Below are positions 9,099-21,049 of a stretch of 37,275 nt of DNA, one piece after another (position 1 is the stretch's first letter; each line of letters begins with the position of its first letter). The position numbers and the translations under genes are program-made. The notes beneath the pieces were generated by a model that worked only from the letters and a program-made list of their open reading frames with translations, was not told the origin of the DNA and searched no databases. The stretch lies in assembly GCA_009927815.1 (NCBI GenBank), contig RFMI01000068.1, forward strand, positions 1 through 37,275, written 5' to 3'. This stretch comes from Betaproteobacteria bacterium. GTDB taxonomy: Bacteria; Pseudomonadota; Gammaproteobacteria; Burkholderiales; UBA3065.

Positions 9099-9707
9099 AT
9101 GAATCTTCCTGTGCCAACCCTCAACATCGCCGAGGACGCTTATCGCTTCCGCGGCGAACTCGACCGACGCGACATCATCTCGTCGTACAGCGGTCCGCTG
9201 ACTGACGACATTCTGTCGAGTCTTGGCAATTCGCTGCGCACCAAGATGGAATTCGACGAGACCGACCGCAAGATCAGCCGCGGTGTTTTCTCGGCACTGG
9301 TCGAGCAAGCGCAAAACATCATGCGCTACTCGGCCGAAACTCAGGCCCCGCCGTCCGGCCGCGACCTCGAAGGCAAATCGCTTGAAGACGCCTCGCTGCG
9401 CTTCGGCATGGTCCTGATCGGTCGCACGGAAAACGGCACCTGGTACGTCAGCTGCTCCAACGTCATCAACAACGACGTCGTAGCTAGGCTTAGCCAGTCG
9501 ATCTCATCGCTGCAGGGTCTGGACCGCAAGGAACTCGGCGCGATGATGAAAGAACAGCTGCGTGACGGCCCGCCGGAAGGCTCAAAAGGCGCCGGCGTCG
9601 GCTGGATCACAATTGCCCGCGAGGCAACAGGCGGTTTCGAGTTCGACTTCTTCCCGATTATGGGAACGGACAAAAGCTACTTCACGTTCAAAGCCTATTT
9701 CGAGTGA
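9099..9707 (+). CDS. siaB: SiaB-family protein kinase
   Basis: A 202-residue protein of the SiaB family. In Pseudomonas aeruginosa, SiaB phosphorylates SiaC, and this controls a diguanylate cyclase and cell aggregation. The fold is a degenerate GHKL-like ATPase. An N-box-like helix is visible at ALVEQAQNIMRYS (about 66-78; E69 and N73) and a glycine-rich lid at SKGAGVGWITIA (about 162-173). ATG 9099 has a good ribosome site (AAGGGAAATTGAAGC). No membrane segment or signal is present, so it is cytoplasmic. The 178-base region upstream is shared with the divergent CorA-type gene and holds the promoter, which I could not place. siaC follows at once, and a PP2C phosphatase follows that, so kinase, substrate and phosphatase are co-transcribed. 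Confidence 0.88.
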   Translation: MNLPVPTLNIAEDAYRFRGELDRRDIISSYSGPLTDDILSSLGNSLRTKMEFDETDRKISRGVFSALVEQAQNIMRYSAETQAPPSGRDLEGKSLEDASLRFGMVLIGRTENGTWYVSCSNVINNDVVARLSQSISSLQGLDRKELGAMMKEQLRDGPPEGSKGAGVGWITIAREATGGFEFDFFPIMGTDKSYFTFKAYFE

Positions 9708-9712
9708 CGACC

Positions 9713-10093
9713 ATGAGCAAACTTTTCATTGGCGCCGGCGTGCGCACCCCGCAGATCACCTTCTCGTTCGAAGACGGCGTGTTCTCGCTCGAAGGCGAGT
9801 CCTACCCGGAAGATGTTCGTGCCTTTTATGACGATCCCATGGCGCAGTTCTACACTTGGCTCGAAAGCACCTCGGCACCGCTCCGGTTCGAGTTCAAGCT
9901 GGTGTATTTCAACAGCTCGACCGCCAAGGTCATCATGGACTTGATGGAGCGTCTTGAAGAAGCCGCTGGCAATGGCCGTGAGTGTCTGATCCAGTGGCAC
10001 TACGCCGAGGACGACGACAACATCAAGGAACTCGGCGAAGAATTTGCTGAAGACCTGGTCTCGGCGAAGTTCGAACTGGTCGAAGTGAACTAA
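9713..10093 (+). CDS. siaC: SiaC-family regulatory phosphoprotein
   Basis: A 126-residue member of the SiaC family (formerly DUF1987), the anti-sigma-antagonist-like switch protein phosphorylated by SiaB. Visible family blocks are TPQITFSFEDGVFSLEGESYPED (start) and the phospho-site region VYFNSSTAK, where T70 aligns with the threonine phosphorylated in P. aeruginosa SiaC (Thr68). The C-terminus is acidic. Unphosphorylated SiaC activates the diguanylate cyclase SiaD in Pseudomonas; no siaD lies next to it here, so the output partner is unknown. I chose ATG 9713, but an in-frame GTG at 9704 overlaps the siaB stop as GTGA and would add three residues. Four bases separate its stop from the phosphatase gene. 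Confidence 0.88.
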   Translation: MSKLFIGAGVRTPQITFSFEDGVFSLEGESYPEDVRAFYDDPMAQFYTWLESTSAPLRFEFKLVYFNSSTAKVIMDLMERLEEAAGNGRECLIQWHYAEDDDNIKELGEEFAEDLVSAKFELVEVN

Positions 10094-10097
10094 GACC

Positions 10098-11309
10098 ATG
10101 AGCCTTCATATCCCTGCTCGCTCGTTGATGTCGCCGACCGAAACCGTCAAGGTCACCGCTCGTTGCGACACCATCATCCCTCGCATCCGTGAAGACAGCA
10201 GCCTCAAGCTGGTCGTAGTGGTCGACGAAAACAACCTGCCGGTAGGGATTCTTGAGCGCATCGAGATCCTGACGGCGATGGCCAACCCGCTGGCTTACGC
10301 GGTGTTCCAGAACCGGCCGGTCTCGAGCCTGATGGACGAGGAATTCTTCACCTTCCCGGCCGACGGCGACATGGCCGACCTCAGCGCTGTTATCAACGAG
10401 AGTGCCGAGAGTATCCACACCGGCGGTCTGGTGTTGCTGGACGACAACCGCTGTGCAGGCGTGCTGCTTTACTCCGACTTCCTCGGCTACATGGTGCGCC
10501 AAGATGCCGAACGCGCCGCGGAACTCGCCGAGGCGCACGAGGTGGTGATGGATTCGGTGAATTACGCCAGCCGCATCCAACAAGGCTTGCTGGGTAATCG
10601 CGATAAGATGCGTGCCTCGTTCACCGACGTCGGCATCGTCTGGGAACCGCGAGATGTGGTGGGCGGCGACATCTTCTGGCAGTCGCCCAAGCGCGCCGAC
10701 GGGATGTTCTGGGTGGCGTTGGTCGACTGCACCGGCCACGGCGTGCCCGGCGCGATGGTGTCGATGCTGGTCGCATCTGCACTCAATCGCTTGTGGGAGA
10801 CCCACAACGACCTGAATCCGGGCGAGGTGCTGGGCAAGTTGGGCGACTTGGTGCGCCAAGCCCTCAACCAAGACTCGGAAGACGCAAAATCGAATGACGG
10901 CTTCGATTCGGCGATCGTGCGCATCGAACCGGCGTCCGGAGTGGTCAACTACGCCGGCGCGCGCATCGGCTTGTTCGTGGTCCCGCGTGAACATGAACCG
11001 GTGCTCCGCATCAACGGCTTCAAGATGGCGCTGGGTTACAAGGGCACTGAGCCGCACGCCCCGCTGCCCAACACCGAACTGAAGATTCACGACGTGGCCG
11101 CCATGGTCATGGCCACTGATGGGGTGTTCGACCAACCGGGCGGTGCCAACGGTCGGGCCTTCGGACCGACTCGACTGGCCGATTTCTTGGCCGCGCATCG
11201 GAATGACTCGGCCAGCGAACTGGCTCGCAAGCTGCAATCGGAAATGACCCATTGGCGTGGCGATCAATCCCGCCGCGACGACCTGAGCGCCCTGGTGCTC
11301 GGCTTCTGA
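10098..11309 (+). CDS. CBS-domain PP2C (SpoIIE-type) phosphatase, SiaA-like role
   Basis: A 403-residue serine/threonine phosphatase, by position the one that removes phosphate from SiaC. Residues about 5-135 look like a CBS-domain pair (LMSPTETVKV, LKLVVVVDENNLPVGIL, GGLVLLDDNRCAGVLLYSDF), a module that often binds adenine nucleotides. A helical linker (VNYASRIQQGLLG) leads into a SpoIIE/PP2C domain. Metal and catalytic motifs are intact: VGGD at 188-191, DCTGHG at 210-215, DGFD near 267, ATDGVFD near 339, RRDD near 392. P. aeruginosa SiaA instead has membrane and HAMP segments, so the input here is likely cytoplasmic and nucleotide-like. ATG 10098 lies 4 bases after siaC. Enzyme class is certain; substrate and ligand are inferred from gene order. 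Confidence 0.87.
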   Translation: MSLHIPARSLMSPTETVKVTARCDTIIPRIREDSSLKLVVVVDENNLPVGILERIEILTAMANPLAYAVFQNRPVSSLMDEEFFTFPADGDMADLSAVINESAESIHTGGLVLLDDNRCAGVLLYSDFLGYMVRQDAERAAELAEAHEVVMDSVNYASRIQQGLLGNRDKMRASFTDVGIVWEPRDVVGGDIFWQSPKRADGMFWVALVDCTGHGVPGAMVSMLVASALNRLWETHNDLNPGEVLGKLGDLVRQALNQDSEDAKSNDGFDSAIVRIEPASGVVNYAGARIGLFVVPREHEPVLRINGFKMALGYKGTEPHAPLPNTELKIHDVAAMVMATDGVFDQPGGANGRAFGPTRLADFLAAHRNDSASELARKLQSEMTHWRGDQSRRDDLSALVLGF

Positions 11310-11506: not shown

Positions 11507-12679
11507 TCACATGAGCGGCCGCCGATAACCGCCACCCACTCCAACGGGCGACAGCACCACTTGCCACAACTGGTTGCTGCGGGCGCGAAAACTACCGGCA
11601 CAGGCCAGCAGGTAATAGCGCCAAATGCGATGGAAGCGGTCGCCGTAGCGCTCGCGAAACTGCGGCCAGGTGGCCTCGAACCGCTGGTGCCAGGCCATCA
11701 GCGTGCGGTCGTAATCGGCGCCAAAGTTGTGCACATCCTCGACCACGAACAGGCCCTCGCAGGCATCGGTGATCTCGCTGAGCGCCGGCAACTCGCCGTT
11801 CGGGAAAATGTTGCGTTCCATCCAAGGGTCGATGCTGCGGCCACGATCGTTTTTCCCGATGGTGTGCAACAGCAATAGACCGTCGTCGTGCAGCAGCGCC
11901 CGCATGGTCTCGAAAAAACGTCGGTAATTGGCGTGCCCGACGTGCTCAAACATCCCGACCGAGGCGATGCGGTCGAACCGACGCTCAGGCTGGTCTTCGA
12001 AGCAGCGATAGTCGGACAGCACGAACTCCACCGGCAGGCCCTTGCACCGCTGCTCCCCCCACGCCGCTTGTTGCCGCGAATTGGTGAGCCCAGTGCACTC
12101 GACACCATGGTGCTCGGCGGCCCAGCGCATCAGCCCGCCCCAGCCGCACCCAACGTCGAGCAGACGCATGCCGGGCTTGAGACCGAGCTTGGCGCAGACC
12201 AACTCGAGCTTGGCCTCTTGCGCAGCCTCAAGAGTGCTGGCTTGCGCCCAGTACCCGCAGCTGTAGACCATATAGGGATCAAGCATCGCGGAAAAGAACT
12301 CGTTGCCAAGATCGTAGTGTTGACGAGCCACCGTCCACGCGCGCGCCAAAGACTGGCGGTTGAACAGACGCGACTCGATGGCCAGCAGCAAGGCTTCCGG
12401 GTTCTTGACCTGGCGCTGCAGATCGGCGCGCAAGACGCGGTCGACGAACGCGTCCACCGCTGCGCAGTCCCACCAGCCATCGGCATAGGACTCGCCCAGA
12501 CCCAAGCTGCCATGCCCGAGAATCCGCTGAGCGGTTTCCGGATCGTGGATCTGGATGTCCCACGGTCGATTCCCACCGACCTCAACATCGGCCGCAGCCA
12601 ACAACTGGCGCAGGCGCTCAAGGCGGCTGTCGCCGCCATTGACCGGTTTTAGCGTTTCGGGTCTGACACGAACTTCCAT
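11507..12679 (-). CDS. cfa: Cyclopropane-fatty-acyl-phospholipid synthase
   Basis: A 390-residue SAM-dependent methyltransferase that adds a methylene bridge to unsaturated acyl chains of membrane phospholipids, usually in stationary phase or under acid stress. It is close to the E. coli Cfa length (382). The SAM site is LDVGCGWGG (about 174-182). Family signatures are ARQHYDLGNEFF (about 118), YSCGYW with the conserved Cys at 141, MFEHVGHANY, and a C-terminal RIWRYYLLACAGSFRAR region. The N-terminal Cfa domain is present (about 1-110). ATG 12679 follows the ribosome site GGAGAGG, which is buried in a hairpin (separate entry). It ends 18 bases from the sia terminator, convergent with that operon. 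The macABC-like operon lies upstream on the same strand, with 85 bases between. Confidence 0.95.
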   Translation of the reverse strand: MEVRVRPETLKPVNGGDSRLERLRQLLAAADVEVGGNRPWDIQIHDPETAQRILGHGSLGLGESYADGWWDCAAVDAFVDRVLRADLQRQVKNPEALLLAIESRLFNRQSLARAWTVARQHYDLGNEFFSAMLDPYMVYSCGYWAQASTLEAAQEAKLELVCAKLGLKPGMRLLDVGCGWGGLMRWAAEHHGVECTGLTNSRQQAAWGEQRCKGLPVEFVLSDYRCFEDQPERRFDRIASVGMFEHVGHANYRRFFETMRALLHDDGLLLLHTIGKNDRGRSIDPWMERNIFPNGELPALSEITDACEGLFVVEDVHNFGADYDRTLMAWHQRFEATWPQFRERYGDRFHRIWRYYLLACAGSFRARSNQLWQVVLSPVGVGGGYRRPLM

Positions 12680-12720
12680 GATCCTCTCCGTCGAAGCGGG
12701 CCATCGGCCCGGAGAGAATC
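12680..12720 (-). promoter_or_regulatory. Hairpin that sequesters the cfa Shine-Dalgarno sequence
   Basis: On the minus strand, GATTCTCTCCG (12720-12710) is complementary over 11 positions, with one G-U pair, to CGGAGAGGATC (12690-12680), which contains the entire ribosome-binding site and ends one base before the cfa ATG. The 19-base loop holds a second short stem (GGCC with GGCC around GAT). There is no T-run after the stem, so it is not an intrinsic terminator for the upstream operon. As folded, it would block ribosome binding, suggesting translational control by a small RNA, protein or temperature. The pairing is read directly from the sequence; the function is inferred. A further dyad, CGGCGTC-AAAGCG-GACGCCG, lies just upstream (about 12737-12756). 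Confidence 0.6.
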
Positions 12721-12764
12721 ACTCTACTCAGCGCGGCGGCGTCCGCTTTGACGCCGGACAAGGG

Positions 12765-14126
12765 CTACTCGATGCGCACAGCAAGCGCACGGCTCAAGGC
12801 CACCAGCGCCGAGAAGCGCCCGAGACGCGCGATGTCGATGGCAGTTTCGGCGGTGTAGACGGTGCGTTGGGCATCCAGCACCGTCGAATAGTCCTCAGCG
12901 CCGGCCGCGAAGCGCAACTCGGCAAGTGCAAGGGCCTCGGCGGCTGCGGCGGCGGCTTCGCGCTGCGCCTGCTCCTGCTGGCTGGCGCTGTCGAGGTTGG
13001 CCAGCGCATCAGCGACCTCCTTCTGCGCTTGCAGCACAACCTGCAGATAGCGCACCAAGCGCTCACGCTGAATGCCCGCGCTCAATTGGGCCTGTCCCTC
13101 CAGACGCCCGCCGTCGAACACAGTTTGGGTCAGGCTCGCAGCCAAGGCATAGAGACCGCTGGACGCCTGCAGCAAATCGCCAGCCACCGCCGACTGCAGG
13201 GCGCCACGCACGCTCAGGTCGAGTCGCGGCAAGATTGCTGCGCGGGCAGCGGCCAGATTGGCCTTGGCCGCCACCAGGTCCAGCTCGGCTTGACGGATGT
13301 CGGGCCGACGCGCCAAGAGTTCGGCTGGCTCACCCGTGGTCGGCTGTGGCACGTTCAGTTGGCGCAGTCCGCCATCCTGATCCGGCGCGGCATCCGGCGG
13401 CTGCCCGGTCAGGATCGCCAGCGCGTTGCGAACCAGCGGACGCTGGCCGACCAGCGCCGCCAGCGCCGCACGGTTGACCGCCACCTGATTGCGCTGGCGC
13501 GCCACCTCGAGGGCCGACACCCGGCCAGCAGTCTTTTGCGCAACGATCAAGCCCAGCAAGCGCTCGCTGGTGGCGACATTGCGCTGCGCGGTGGCGATGC
13601 GATCGTTGATCGACAACAGCTGGAACCACGCCGTCGCCGTGTCCCCCTGCACCGAGAGGCGCACCGCATCGCGAAACGCCTCGCTCGACGCTAGAGCCGC
13701 ACGCCCACCCTCGGCCAGCGAGCGGTTGCGGCCCCACAGATCGACCTCGTAAGCCAAGGTGCCGCCCGCGCCAAACAGGTCGGAGGGGTCGGCGCCGGGT
13801 TGCCGGTTGCGCTGCGTCGAAGCATTGCCGGTGAGACTGGGGAACACACCCGCCGCACTCACGCGGGCAGTCGCTCGCGCTTGCTCGATGCGCGCCAGCG
13901 CCGTACGCATGTCGAGGTTCTCAGCCTGTGCGCGTGTGAGCACGGCGTCGAGTTCGGGCAGGCCGAAGCCAATCGCAGCCGCACTGCCCTCGCCGTAGAC
14001 CGCAGGCCAGCGCGCCGCAAGGCGAGGCGCCTCGTCGGCGACCAGGGGCACCTGACTGGCGCACGCCGTCAGCGTCAAGGCGATTGCGGGGAGCCAGCGG
14101 CGGACATGGAATTTAACAAGAATCAT
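12765..14126 (-). CDS. NodT-family outer-membrane efflux lipoprotein
   Basis: A 453-residue outer-membrane channel of the RND/MacB-linked lipoprotein (NodT) family. The signal ends in lipobox LTAC (Cys about residue 22). Two OEP repeats follow, with typical blocks: YEVDLWGRNRSLAEGGRAAL, LARRPDIRQAELDLVAAKAN, AARAAILPRLDLSVRGALQS, VFDGGRLEGQAQLSAGIQ, and the C-terminal YSTVLDAQRTVYTAE. The frame is open further upstream, but ATG 14126 is clearly the start: it overlaps the macB stop as ATGA and is followed at once by a signal peptide. It supplies the outer-membrane exit for the MacA-MacB pair, taking the place that TolC has in E. coli. Confidence 0.93.
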   Translation of the reverse strand: MILVKFHVRRWLPAIALTLTACASQVPLVADEAPRLAARWPAVYGEGSAAAIGFGLPELDAVLTRAQAENLDMRTALARIEQARATARVSAAGVFPSLTGNASTQRNRQPGADPSDLFGAGGTLAYEVDLWGRNRSLAEGGRAALASSEAFRDAVRLSVQGDTATAWFQLLSINDRIATAQRNVATSERLLGLIVAQKTAGRVSALEVARQRNQVAVNRAALAALVGQRPLVRNALAILTGQPPDAAPDQDGGLRQLNVPQPTTGEPAELLARRPDIRQAELDLVAAKANLAAARAAILPRLDLSVRGALQSAVAGDLLQASSGLYALAASLTQTVFDGGRLEGQAQLSAGIQRERLVRYLQVVLQAQKEVADALANLDSASQQEQAQREAAAAAAEALALAELRFAAGAEDYSTVLDAQRTVYTAETAIDIARLGRFSALVALSRALAVRIE

Positions 14127-16069
14127 TCGGACGCCAATGCCATCACCGGGTCGAGTCGCGCCGCCCGTCGCGCCGGCAGGTAGCCAAACACCATGCCGAT
14201 GATAAAGGCGCTGCCGAAGGCCATAAGCACTGGCGGCGCCGAAAAAATCACCGGCGAACCGAAGGCTCGCGCGGCGTACCCAGCGGCAAAACCCAAGCCA
14301 ACGCCAATCAGGCCGCCAATCGCACACACGAGCAAGGCCTCAATCGAGAACTGCAACTGGATCTGCGCCCGCCGCGCTCCACAGGCCATGCGGATGCCAA
14401 TCTCGCGGATGCGTTCGGTGACCGACACCAGCATGATGTTCATCACACCGATGCCCCCCACCAAGAGAGAGATTGCGGCAATAGAGCCCAACAAGAGGGC
14501 CAGGGTGTCCTGCGTCTCGGTGGCAGTCTCAATCAGTGAGGCCATGTTGCGCACCTTGAAGTCGACGGTCTGATGACGCCGTTTGAGAATCGCCTCGACC
14601 GCCTCCACCGTAGCCTCCGACTGGTTCATATCAGCCAGCTGCAGGGCAATCGCCTTAACGTGACTCTGACCGAACAAGCGCATTCGACCGGTGGTCAAGG
14701 GCACGAATAGGTTGTCGTCAAGGTCGCTGCCGAAGGCCGATTCGCCCTTGCTCGACATCACACCGACCACCTCGAAGGGAACGTTCTCAATGAGGATGCT
14801 CTGGCCGATCGGGTTTTCACCCTCGGTGAACAAAGCGTCGCGCACCGTTGTGCCAATCACGGCAACCGGTGAATAACTGCTGACATCGGCGTCCGAGAAA
14901 AAATCGCCCTGCAGCAAATCCCAGCTTCGCGAGGCCGGGTAATTGGCGGTGGTGCCAGTGCCGTTGGTGGCGTAATCGTTGCGGCCGAAGCGCACCGTAA
15001 TGCCACCGCCATTCTCCGGAACCACACGCTTGACGTTAGGCAGACCGTCCAGCGCCTTGGCGTCGTCGGCCGTGAGCGTCTTGATGCCGCCCGAGCCGCG
15101 CACATTGCGGGCACCGGGGCGCACCACCAGGAGGTCGGGCCCCATCGCCTCGATGCGCTCCAGCACCTGCCGCTTGCTGCCGTCACCCAGCGCCAGCATG
15201 GCGATCACCGCCGCCACCCCGATGATGATGCCGAGCAGGGTCAGCACCGTGCGAAACAGGTTGTTGCGCAGGGAGCGCAAAGCCATACCGATGGCAGCGG
15301 CCAGATCGCCGACAGGATGCGCGTCGGGTGGCGTCTGATCCAGCTCCAAGGACGACGCCGCGGCAAGAGCCGGCACCGCATCGTCGCGACGCGTGTCCGA
15401 CACCACGCGCCCGTCGACCAGCTCGATCACGCGCTGCGCCTGCGCGGCCACTGCAGCGTCGTGGGTGATGAGGATGATGGTGTGGCCCTCGGCGTGGAGC
15501 TCGTGCAGCAGCGCCAGCACCTCGCCGCCCGAACCGGTGTCGAGAGCGCCGGTAGGCTCGTCGGCCAAGATGACGCTGCCGCCATTCATCAGCGCACGCG
15601 CAATCGACACGCGCTGCTGCTGCCCCCCGGAGAGCTCATTGGGCCGATGGTGGCCGCGGTCGGCCAGGCCCAATCGGCTGAGCAGACGCGCTGCCCGCTG
15701 ATGACGGTCGCCACTGCCGATTCCGCGGTAGATGGCTGGCATTGCCACATTCTGCAGCGCAGTCTCGGTGCCAATCAGGTGATAGCGCTGGAACACGAAT
15801 CCGAACACTTCGCTGCGCAGAGCCGCCAATTCGTCCGGCGTACAGTGCGCCACATCGCGGCCGTCGAACAGGTATTGACCGGTGCTGGGCGTATCCAGAC
15901 AGCCCAGCAGATTCATCAGGGTGGTCTTGCCTGAACCCGACTGGCCGCGAATCGCAACGAACTCGCCGCGACCGATGGCGAGATCGATGCCATGCAGCAC
16001 CCGCACCGCCAACTCGCCCTGGCCGTACGTCTTGCTGATGCCGCGCAGTTCGATCAAAGGCTGCGTCAT
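14123..16069 (-). CDS. macB: MacB-type ABC transporter (fused ATPase and permease)
   Basis: A 648-residue protein, the same length as E. coli MacB. The N-terminal ATPase has Walker A GQSGSGKTT (42-50), Q-loop FQRYHLIGTETALQNV, signature LSGGQQQR, Walker B VILADEP and H-loop THD. After a linker come TM1 (about 265-290), a large periplasmic MacB domain (about 295-520) and three C-terminal TMs including AAISLLVGGIGVMNIMLVSV and ERIREIGIRMACGARR. MacB uses ATP-driven periplasmic motion to push macrolides, toxins, lipopeptides or heme precursors through the outer-membrane channel. ATG 16069 lies 14 bases after macA; its stop overlaps the next gene by 4 bases. Substrate cannot be inferred: no biosynthetic genes adjoin. 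Confidence 0.94.
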   Translation of the reverse strand: MTQPLIELRGISKTYGQGELAVRVLHGIDLAIGRGEFVAIRGQSGSGKTTLMNLLGCLDTPSTGQYLFDGRDVAHCTPDELAALRSEVFGFVFQRYHLIGTETALQNVAMPAIYRGIGSGDRHQRAARLLSRLGLADRGHHRPNELSGGQQQRVSIARALMNGGSVILADEPTGALDTGSGGEVLALLHELHAEGHTIILITHDAAVAAQAQRVIELVDGRVVSDTRRDDAVPALAAASSLELDQTPPDAHPVGDLAAAIGMALRSLRNNLFRTVLTLLGIIIGVAAVIAMLALGDGSKRQVLERIEAMGPDLLVVRPGARNVRGSGGIKTLTADDAKALDGLPNVKRVVPENGGGITVRFGRNDYATNGTGTTANYPASRSWDLLQGDFFSDADVSSYSPVAVIGTTVRDALFTEGENPIGQSILIENVPFEVVGVMSSKGESAFGSDLDDNLFVPLTTGRMRLFGQSHVKAIALQLADMNQSEATVEAVEAILKRRHQTVDFKVRNMASLIETATETQDTLALLLGSIAAISLLVGGIGVMNIMLVSVTERIREIGIRMACGARRAQIQLQFSIEALLVCAIGGLIGVGLGFAAGYAARAFGSPVIFSAPPVLMAFGSAFIIGMVFGYLPARRAARLDPVMALASE

Positions 16070-16083
16070 GGTCAGTGGTGGGA

Positions 16084-17415
16084 TCAGTACATCGGCAGCT
16101 TAGGCTTGCCGCCCGAACCACCGCCCTTGTCACCCTTGCCACGCCCCTTGTCCGCGCCGTCGCCCGACTTCGGGCGTGGCAGTACGACCTCCTCGCCCTC
16201 GGCCAGCCCCGCGATGACTTGCACCTGATTGCGGGACTCCAGCCCCAGCGTCACCTCGCGCTCACTGATCACGCCGTCCTTGACCACTTTCACTTTGCCG
16301 GGACGCGGCGCGCCATCCGCACCAGCCCGCTTGGCATCGCCGCCCCCCCCTTGCTTGCCCTTACCGTTGCCGTTGCCCTTGCCCTTGCCCGAACGCTCCG
16401 GCTTGATCACGGCACGTGCCGGGATGGTCAACGCATCGTCCACCTGCTTGAGCTTGAAGGTCACTTGCGCGCTCATCTGTGGCAACAAGACGCCATCCGG
16501 GTTCTCAACGTCGAACAACACGTTGTACAGGACGACGTTGTTGACCACCTCGGGCGTCGGCAGGATCTGCCTAACCTTCCCGGTCCAGCGCCGGTCGGGC
16601 AGTCCCAGGGTGTTGAAGAACGCCGACGTGCCGACGCGAATCTTGCTGATGTCGGCCTCTGACACCTGCGCCTGCACCGACATCACCGACAAATCGGCCA
16701 CCCGCAGGATCACAGGCGCTTGCTGAGCAGCCACCAGCGTCTGGCCCTGCCGCGCGGTGACCGACACCACGGTGCCGGTCATCGGCGCAAAGATCTGCGT
16801 GTAGCGCAAATTGGCGCGATCGGCGACCAGCAGCGAGCTCTGCTGACGGATTTGCGCCTCAATCGAAGCAACGCCGGCTTCGGCTTGCTGCAAGGTGGCT
16901 TCGGAGGCCTCTAGATCCTCGCGACTGACGGCGTCGCTGCGCATCAAGCTGCGGTTGCGCTCAACCCGCTGCCGGGCCAAGGTCAGCTGGGCGGTGCGGT
17001 CAGACGATTGCGCTCGCAGGTTGTTGATCGCGGCACTGGTCTGGTTGACGCGGGATTCAAACAGCGTGGGGTCGATCTCGGCAATCAACTGACCCTTTTT
17101 GACGGTTTGGCCGATCTCGACACCCAGTCGGCGCAACTGCCCGGTGACTTGCGTGCCGACGTCAACGAACTGCAACGGCAGGAGGGTTCCCAGCGCGTTG
17201 ACGGTCAGCTGCACAGTGCCGCGCTCGACACGAGCGGTCTCGTAGGCTGGCGCCTCGTCGGCACGCCACGGCTGCCACCACGCCAAACCACCGGCCAAAG
17301 CCAACGCACCCACCACCAACAACAGTTTTCCGCGCTTCAAACCTGTCTCCACTGTCTTCCGACCGGCGGGCGAAGCCAGCCGCGACAGAAACCTTGATAC
17401 AACGCAAACCCTCAC
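16084..17415 (-). CDS. macA: MacA-type periplasmic adaptor with Gly/Lys-rich inserts
   Basis: A 443-residue membrane fusion protein. It has one N-terminal TM (LLLVVGALALAGGLAWW), a lipoyl domain in two halves (GTLLPLQFVDVGTQVTGQL and GTVVSVTARQGQTLVAAQQ), a coiled-coil hairpin (about 95-200) and a beta-barrel domain (VSEADISKIRVGTSAFF). Unusually, a low-complexity run of Gly, Lys and Asn sits near residue 340 inside the membrane-proximal region, and a second Gly/Lys/Asp-rich tail precedes the C-terminal KLPMY. The longest start is GTG 17415. The region before the TM does not look conserved, and TTG at 17340, preceded by GGAGACAG, gives a cleaner N-terminus (MKRGKLLLVV), so the true protein may be 25 residues shorter. 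First gene of a macA-macB-channel operon, divergent from a diguanylate cyclase gene. Confidence 0.92.
   Translation of the reverse strand: MRVCVVSRFLSRLASPAGRKTVETGLKRGKLLLVVGALALAGGLAWWQPWRADEAPAYETARVERGTVQLTVNALGTLLPLQFVDVGTQVTGQLRRLGVEIGQTVKKGQLIAEIDPTLFESRVNQTSAAINNLRAQSSDRTAQLTLARQRVERNRSLMRSDAVSREDLEASEATLQQAEAGVASIEAQIRQQSSLLVADRANLRYTQIFAPMTGTVVSVTARQGQTLVAAQQAPVILRVADLSVMSVQAQVSEADISKIRVGTSAFFNTLGLPDRRWTGKVRQILPTPEVVNNVVLYNVLFDVENPDGVLLPQMSAQVTFKLKQVDDALTIPARAVIKPERSGKGKGNGNGKGKQGGGGDAKRAGADGAPRPGKVKVVKDGVISEREVTLGLESRNQVQVIAGLAEGEEVVLPRPKSGDGADKGRGKGDKGGGSGGKPKLPMY
16343..16390 (-). repeat. Low-complexity tract inside macA
   Basis: An intragenic run built from C8 (16343-16350) followed by degenerate TTGCCC/TTACCG/TTGCCG hexamers. 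It encodes GKGKGNGNGKGKQGGGG in MacA. Hexamer gain or loss would keep the frame; slippage in the C8 run would not. The frame is intact here. Confidence 0.7.
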
Positions 17416-20871: not shown

Positions 20872-20880
20872 AAGGGGCCT

Positions 20881-20922
20881 CGATGTCGATGTCGATGTCG
20901 ATGTCGATGTCGATGTCGATGT
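20881..20922. repeat. Hexamer tandem repeat (CGATGT)7
   Basis: Seven perfect copies of CGATGT followed by a partial CGAT. The tract starts within a base of the GAGG ribosome site of the PhnD-like gene, whose ATG lies 10 bases away. Copy-number change would alter leader or promoter spacing by multiples of six. Just outside the tract on the minus strand is CATAAT, a possible -10 element that would place the transcript start inside the repeat. It is not a CRISPR array: it has no spacers. Confidence 0.95.
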
Positions 20923-21049
20923 CGATTATGAGTATCACACGGTTTCCAGCTGGACCCGGTCTTAATGCTGGGCGAGTTCGGCCGCCGCAAGACGCCCCAC
21001 AACCCAATGGGACGTCACCTGCGCGGGGGACGTCGATGGCGCGCTCGCC

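Follow-up and report, generated by a model that had tools for sequence, protein, structure and literature searches.

The ribosome-binding site (RBS) of the cfa-like gene in the window (the whole stretch of DNA analysed, 37,275 nt) lies within a hairpin that is real, conserved and specific to this gene. The explanation that we favour, tentatively and at somewhat short of an even chance, is that the hairpin silences cfa on transcripts reading through from the upstream macA-macB-OMF genes, while mRNA from the gene's own promoter is translatable.

The hairpin at the cfa start codon

Folding of the minus strand predicts a two-part structure (Table 1). The outer helix joins 12722–12711 to 12689–12678 in 12 continuous pairs, two of them G-U, and its 3' arm reads GGAGAGGAUCAU. 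Within it, 12710–12706 and 12702–12698 form a 5 bp stem closed by a GAT loop, and 8 nt (12697–12690) between the inner stem and the outer helix are unpaired, on the 3' side only. An inverted-repeat search found arms of 12 nt at 12679–12690 and 12710–12721, 92 % complementary and 19 nt apart. A preliminary description of this region had reported an 11 bp helix with one G-U pair and the ATG one base outside. The inverted repeat is present, but the helix is longer, as given above, and takes in the A and U of the start codon. The whole of GGAGAGG is also paired inside the predicted outer helix, so the proposed sequestration of the ribosome site is upheld.

Table 1. Features at and upstream of the cfa start (window coordinates)
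Feature	Position	Strand	Basis
cfa-like cyclopropane fatty acid synthase gene (CMAS)	11507–12679	minus	Pfam PF02353, E 1.7e-85; start codon conserved in orthologues
Outer helix, 3' arm: SD GGAGAGG (12689–12683), AUC, AU of AUG	12678–12689	minus	Folding
Inner stem-loop GGGCC-GAU-GGCCC	12698–12710	minus	Folding, alignment, arm-swap test
Outer helix, 5' arm (anti-SD, GUGAUUCUCUCC)	12711–12722	minus	Folding, inverted-repeat search, arm-swap test
Putative -10 box of cfa, TAGAGT (TAGATT in four relatives)	12721–12726	minus	Alignment; role inferred
Further conserved block CTTGTCCGGCGTCAAAGCGGACGCCG, either a small hairpin or an activator site	12737–12762	minus	Alignment
Outer membrane efflux protein gene (OMF), upstream of cfa; start approximate	12765–14270	minus	Pfam PF02321; synteny
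macB-like ABC efflux gene	14123–16069	minus	ORF, conserved order; named by sequence resemblance
macA-like adaptor gene, head of probable operon	16084–17415	minus	ORF, conserved order; named by sequence resemblance

The predicted energy of the local hairpin is -25.3 kcal/mol, with z = -3.3 relative to shuffled versions of itself; the 121 nt leader as a whole is unremarkable when folded against shuffles (z = -0.75). With the SD region fixed and the upstream bases shuffled, an equally good SD helix arose in about 1 in 1000 shuffles, and none of 90 sampled gene starts had a better helix than that of the window, in agreement with the earlier view that the pairing is not due to chance. The hairpin lacks a T-run and a terminator search found no match there, which confirms that it is not an intrinsic terminator. 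An Rfam search of the window gave no match at gathering score to a known riboswitch or leader family.

Conservation and compensating changes

The comparison covered five species of the family, all of one genus (the window, L005, L031, L032 and L033). Alignment of cfa leaders from relatives had been proposed as a check on the helix. Upstream of cfa, each of the five leaders runs through TAGA(T/G)T, an arm rich in C/U, an inner stem-loop rich in G/C, the SD and then the ATG. The two-part hairpin is kept at the same place in each genome, with compensating changes detected by the arm-swap test described below. The local hairpins have z-scores of -3.3, -2.0, -2.9, -3.2 and -2.8; in L031 the most favourable fold draws on other partners, with the SD still paired. 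Counted without interruption, the SD helix has 13 pairs in the window, where one pair also belongs to the inner stem, and 5–7 in the relatives, in none of which is the outer arm alone significant against shuffles (p 0.12–0.42).

The 5' arm of the window is offset by 2 nt in register relative to the other species. This makes column-by-column covariation weak, and an arm-swap test was therefore used instead, in which the pairing of arms within species was compared with that of arms permuted across the five species (120 permutations). For the outer arms, the summed energy of own pairings is -65.6 kcal/mol, the permuted mean is -49.8, and four permutations did as well. For the inner arms the sum is -48.7 kcal/mol, against -39.8, and two permutations were as good. 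The test is modest (p about 0.02–0.03) because only five genomes are included. Most of this gain is due to the two most diverged species, the window and L032, a pattern expected of compensating change.

These results bear on a very improbable alternative, that the dyad has no function in RNA and is either a DNA operator or a chance pairing between a pyrimidine-rich promoter and a purine-rich SD. The lack of significance of the relatives' outer arm, taken alone, would agree with this. Operators, however, conserve sequence, whereas the arms here differ between species and yet pair within each; moreover, the inner stem also covaries, and the window helix by itself has p about 0.001.

The hairpin motif is single-copy and, in the genus, is found only at cfa. 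A model built from three relatives found L032 at E 1.6e-4 and the window, with its 5' arm out of register, only at E = 1. When 300 genomes of the order were scanned with a model, no convincing copy emerged beyond the genus, with one weak match. Homologues of cfa at 50–66 % identity have other leaders when folded. In three other genomes of the order (L115, L117 and L118), an unrelated cfa leader has a UUUUCUUU...AAAGGAAAG hairpin over the SD, which was not above shuffles in one imperfect test. A conserved upstream open reading frame running through the hairpin was considered and rejected, as the frame is not conserved. The L033 sequence (CAMDGF010000019.1) belongs to a record titled as a Klebsiella pneumoniae MAG. 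It carries this betaproteobacterial locus, with a cfa 74 % identical and OMF adjacent, and the title is therefore almost certainly a mislabel.

Accessibility of the ribosome-binding site

The predicted cost of opening the SD was ranked within a set of 66 starts, each of which has an ATG, an SD and a stop close upstream. With 1 as the costliest, L005 ranks 1, L033 2, the window 5 and L031 6. L032 falls outside this group, its GAGG being placed in a bulge, although its whole site is still costly to open. The opening cost of the site in the window, calculated on a 150 nt leader, is 12.0 kcal/mol. In temperature folding of the window, pairing of the SD is predicted to stay at about 97 % between 10 and 60 °C. 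Heat had been suggested as an opener of the hairpin, but no melting is predicted at temperatures up to 60 °C. This makes heat opening unlikely, and an RNA thermometer was rejected on the same ground.

An unlikely alternative is a regulated switch acting on the full leader, where the opener of the hairpin would be an RNA-binding protein or a small RNA acting with Hfq; a small RNA or protein opener had been suggested in the preliminary description. Hfq is encoded in all five genomes, and several small RNAs act on E. coli cfa (PMC6755755, PMC12691595). In the present leaders, though, the arm sequences vary among species and hence give no sign of a conserved pairing partner or protein motif. The small RNA sites of E. 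coli lie in a 212 nt leader, far from the SD (PMC6755755), and the parallel with E. coli small RNA control is therefore weak.

Gene order and conserved boxes upstream of cfa

Two features of the leader had been overlooked in the preliminary description, namely its position in an 85 nt gap (minus strand) behind an efflux operon and the presence of a -10-like box before the 5' arm. The order macA-macB-OMF-cfa is found in G000, G001 and G003, and OMF adjoins cfa in G002 and G004, where the stretch read ends. Neither a terminator nor a standard sigma-70 promoter was found in the gap between OMF and cfa.

Between cfa and a corA-like gene, the window carries a plus-strand cassette of three genes at 9099–11309 (9099–9707, 9704–10093 and 10098–11309), the last of which is CBS/PP2C-phosphatase-like. 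The cassette is present in G001 and partly in G004. In the stretches of G002 and G003 that were read it has no match, and corA lies close to cfa there. Within the macA-like gene, an imperfect CTTGCC repeat (16354–16390) encodes a Gly/Lys/Asn-rich stretch, and a perfect 6 bp tandem repeat, TCGATG, is present in 7.8 copies at 20880–20926.

The TAGA(T/G)T box is invariant at five of its six positions and stands directly before the 5' arm, 9–10 nt before the inner stem. A hairpin alone would have no need of TAGA(T/G)T as a second conserved block. In the leaders compared, a TANANT element just before the point at which a 35 nt leader would begin looks like a -10 box; the putative -10 matches the consensus at four of six positions, a recognisable -35 is absent, and the bases at the predicted start are, unusually, pyrimidines. 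Transcription is predicted to start near C12714, inside the 5' arm, giving a leader of about 35 nt. Should the box act as a -10, the mRNA made from cfa's own promoter would begin within the 5' arm and lose most of it. The conserved box thus points to a 5' end that falls within the helix. Such an end had earlier been named as evidence against the hairpin. For the short mRNA that objection would then apply, but the effect would be to confine the hairpin to RNAs that read through from upstream. The sigma factor gene rpoS is present in all five genomes. Further upstream, the block CTTG-CG-TCAA-GCG lies at a conserved spacing of 26–28 nt before the box, and a regulon search with it gave exact matches at cfa only.

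In E. coli pyrC, nucleotide pools reportedly pick alternative start sites. Comparable switching at cfa, with starts in the C/U tract or at the following G set by nucleotide pools, would give RNAs with or without the anti-SD arm, and seems highly improbable. All five leaders do have a C/U tract and then a G run, 7–11 nt from the box, but cfa has no known link to pyrimidine metabolism and a G start would be at an unusual distance from the box.

Intercistronic processing, which is improbable, would give the box another role: RNase E would cut the operon RNA at AG^AUU, and of the two fragments the upstream one would be shielded by the small hairpin and the one carrying cfa by the main hairpin. Hairpins flank the box on both sides, and TAGATT, as found in four relatives, agrees with RN^WUU, a consensus given in PMC6755755. 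The TAGAGT of the window, however, loses the critical U and yet retains the -10 positions.

Proposed silencing of read-through transcripts

Read from the sequences, the hairpin and its compensating changes, the predicted burial of the SD, the gene order, the lack of a terminator and the invariant TAGA(T/G)T are consistent with silencing of read-through transcripts. Polymerase reading from macA-macB-OMF into cfa would produce RNA with both arms, on which the SD and AUG would be buried and from which, we propose, cfa would not be translated. The gene's own promoter, as we infer it, would have the TAGATT-type -10 just before the 5' arm and may be of the sigma-S type, as in E. coli. A start within the 5' arm would give a translatable short mRNA whose leader, some 35 nt in length, lacks most of the anti-SD arm. 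Cfa output would then be tied to its own promoter and not to efflux-pump expression. If transcription starts near C12714, only longer transcripts would account for the compensating changes seen in the upstream half of the arm.

Starting the RNA at the predicted site cuts the predicted opening cost from 12.0 to 5.6 kcal/mol in the window, from 13.4 to 6.9 in L032 and from 16.0 to 9.6 in L033. In the short transcripts of L005 and L031 the drop is small, the SD still being hidden by pairing with the inner 3' arm. That the cost is, by prediction, barely lowered in two of the five short forms is the main weakness of read-through silencing. The nearest rival is a constitutive damper, in which the hairpin is in every cfa transcript and holds the translation rate low, with no switch and no second isoform. 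The predicted pairing of the SD in short and long forms alike in L005 and L031 would suit a damper, and a 5 bp RBS hairpin in Bacillus subtilis sigG lowers translation 2–4-fold (PMC5942855). We consider it rather unlikely; it leaves the invariant TAGATT box and the fixed spacing of the upstream block without a reason, and a weak SD would be a simpler route to low expression.

Read-through silencing may also be framed more specifically, in a form that we regard as possible rather than probable. A covarying hairpin with its 5' strand at cfa's own stress promoter would insulate cfa from the drug-efflux operon, and the choice of promoter would set whether the RNA can be read. Such an isoform-coded switch of membrane cyclopropanation was not found described for cfa in the literature searched; the kind of control is known, and the instance at cfa is new. 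If true, a chromosomal metabolic gene would join the short list of those with hairpins that silence read-through transcripts, and there would be a second, unrelated route to long and short cfa isoforms with different fates.

Comparison with known systems

RNA thermometers likewise pair over the SD, but the cfa hairpin is predicted to be too stable and has no Rfam match. Closer in layout is B. subtilis sigG, which, besides its 5 bp hairpin, has a large RBS hairpin that forms on read-through from the spoIIG operon and cannot form on own-promoter transcripts (PMC5942855). The cfa hairpin also covers the RBS in a layout that fits read-through silencing. The gene and phylum differ, the sequences are unrelated, and an own promoter and read-through are proposed here for cfa. 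In the leaders of phage T4 gene e and I-TevI, the SD and AUG lie in a helix on long transcripts and the promoter is in the 5' strand of the helix (PMC3014915). cfa resembles these in its predicted SD/AUG helix on the long RNA, and its candidate promoter would lie at the 5' strand. The phage genes serve lysis and homing, their late promoters have been mapped and a 100-fold effect was measured (PMC3014915), whereas the cfa hairpin is a predicted structure. As in systems of the sigG and T4 e type, the genes upstream of cfa are co-directional with no intervening terminator, and the SD of the long transcript is predicted to lie inside a stable helix.

In E. coli and Salmonella, cfa is controlled by small RNAs of the RydC, ArrS and CpxQ type, RNase E and Rho acting in the 212 nt leader and not by a hairpin that buries the SD (PMC6755755, PMC12691595). 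E. coli cfa has a sigma-S proximal promoter, which gives a short isoform with a 34 nt leader beside the long isoform (PMC6755755). The gene is the same, and the 34 nt leader of the short isoform there (PMC6755755, PMC12691595) compares with the 35 nt or so predicted here.
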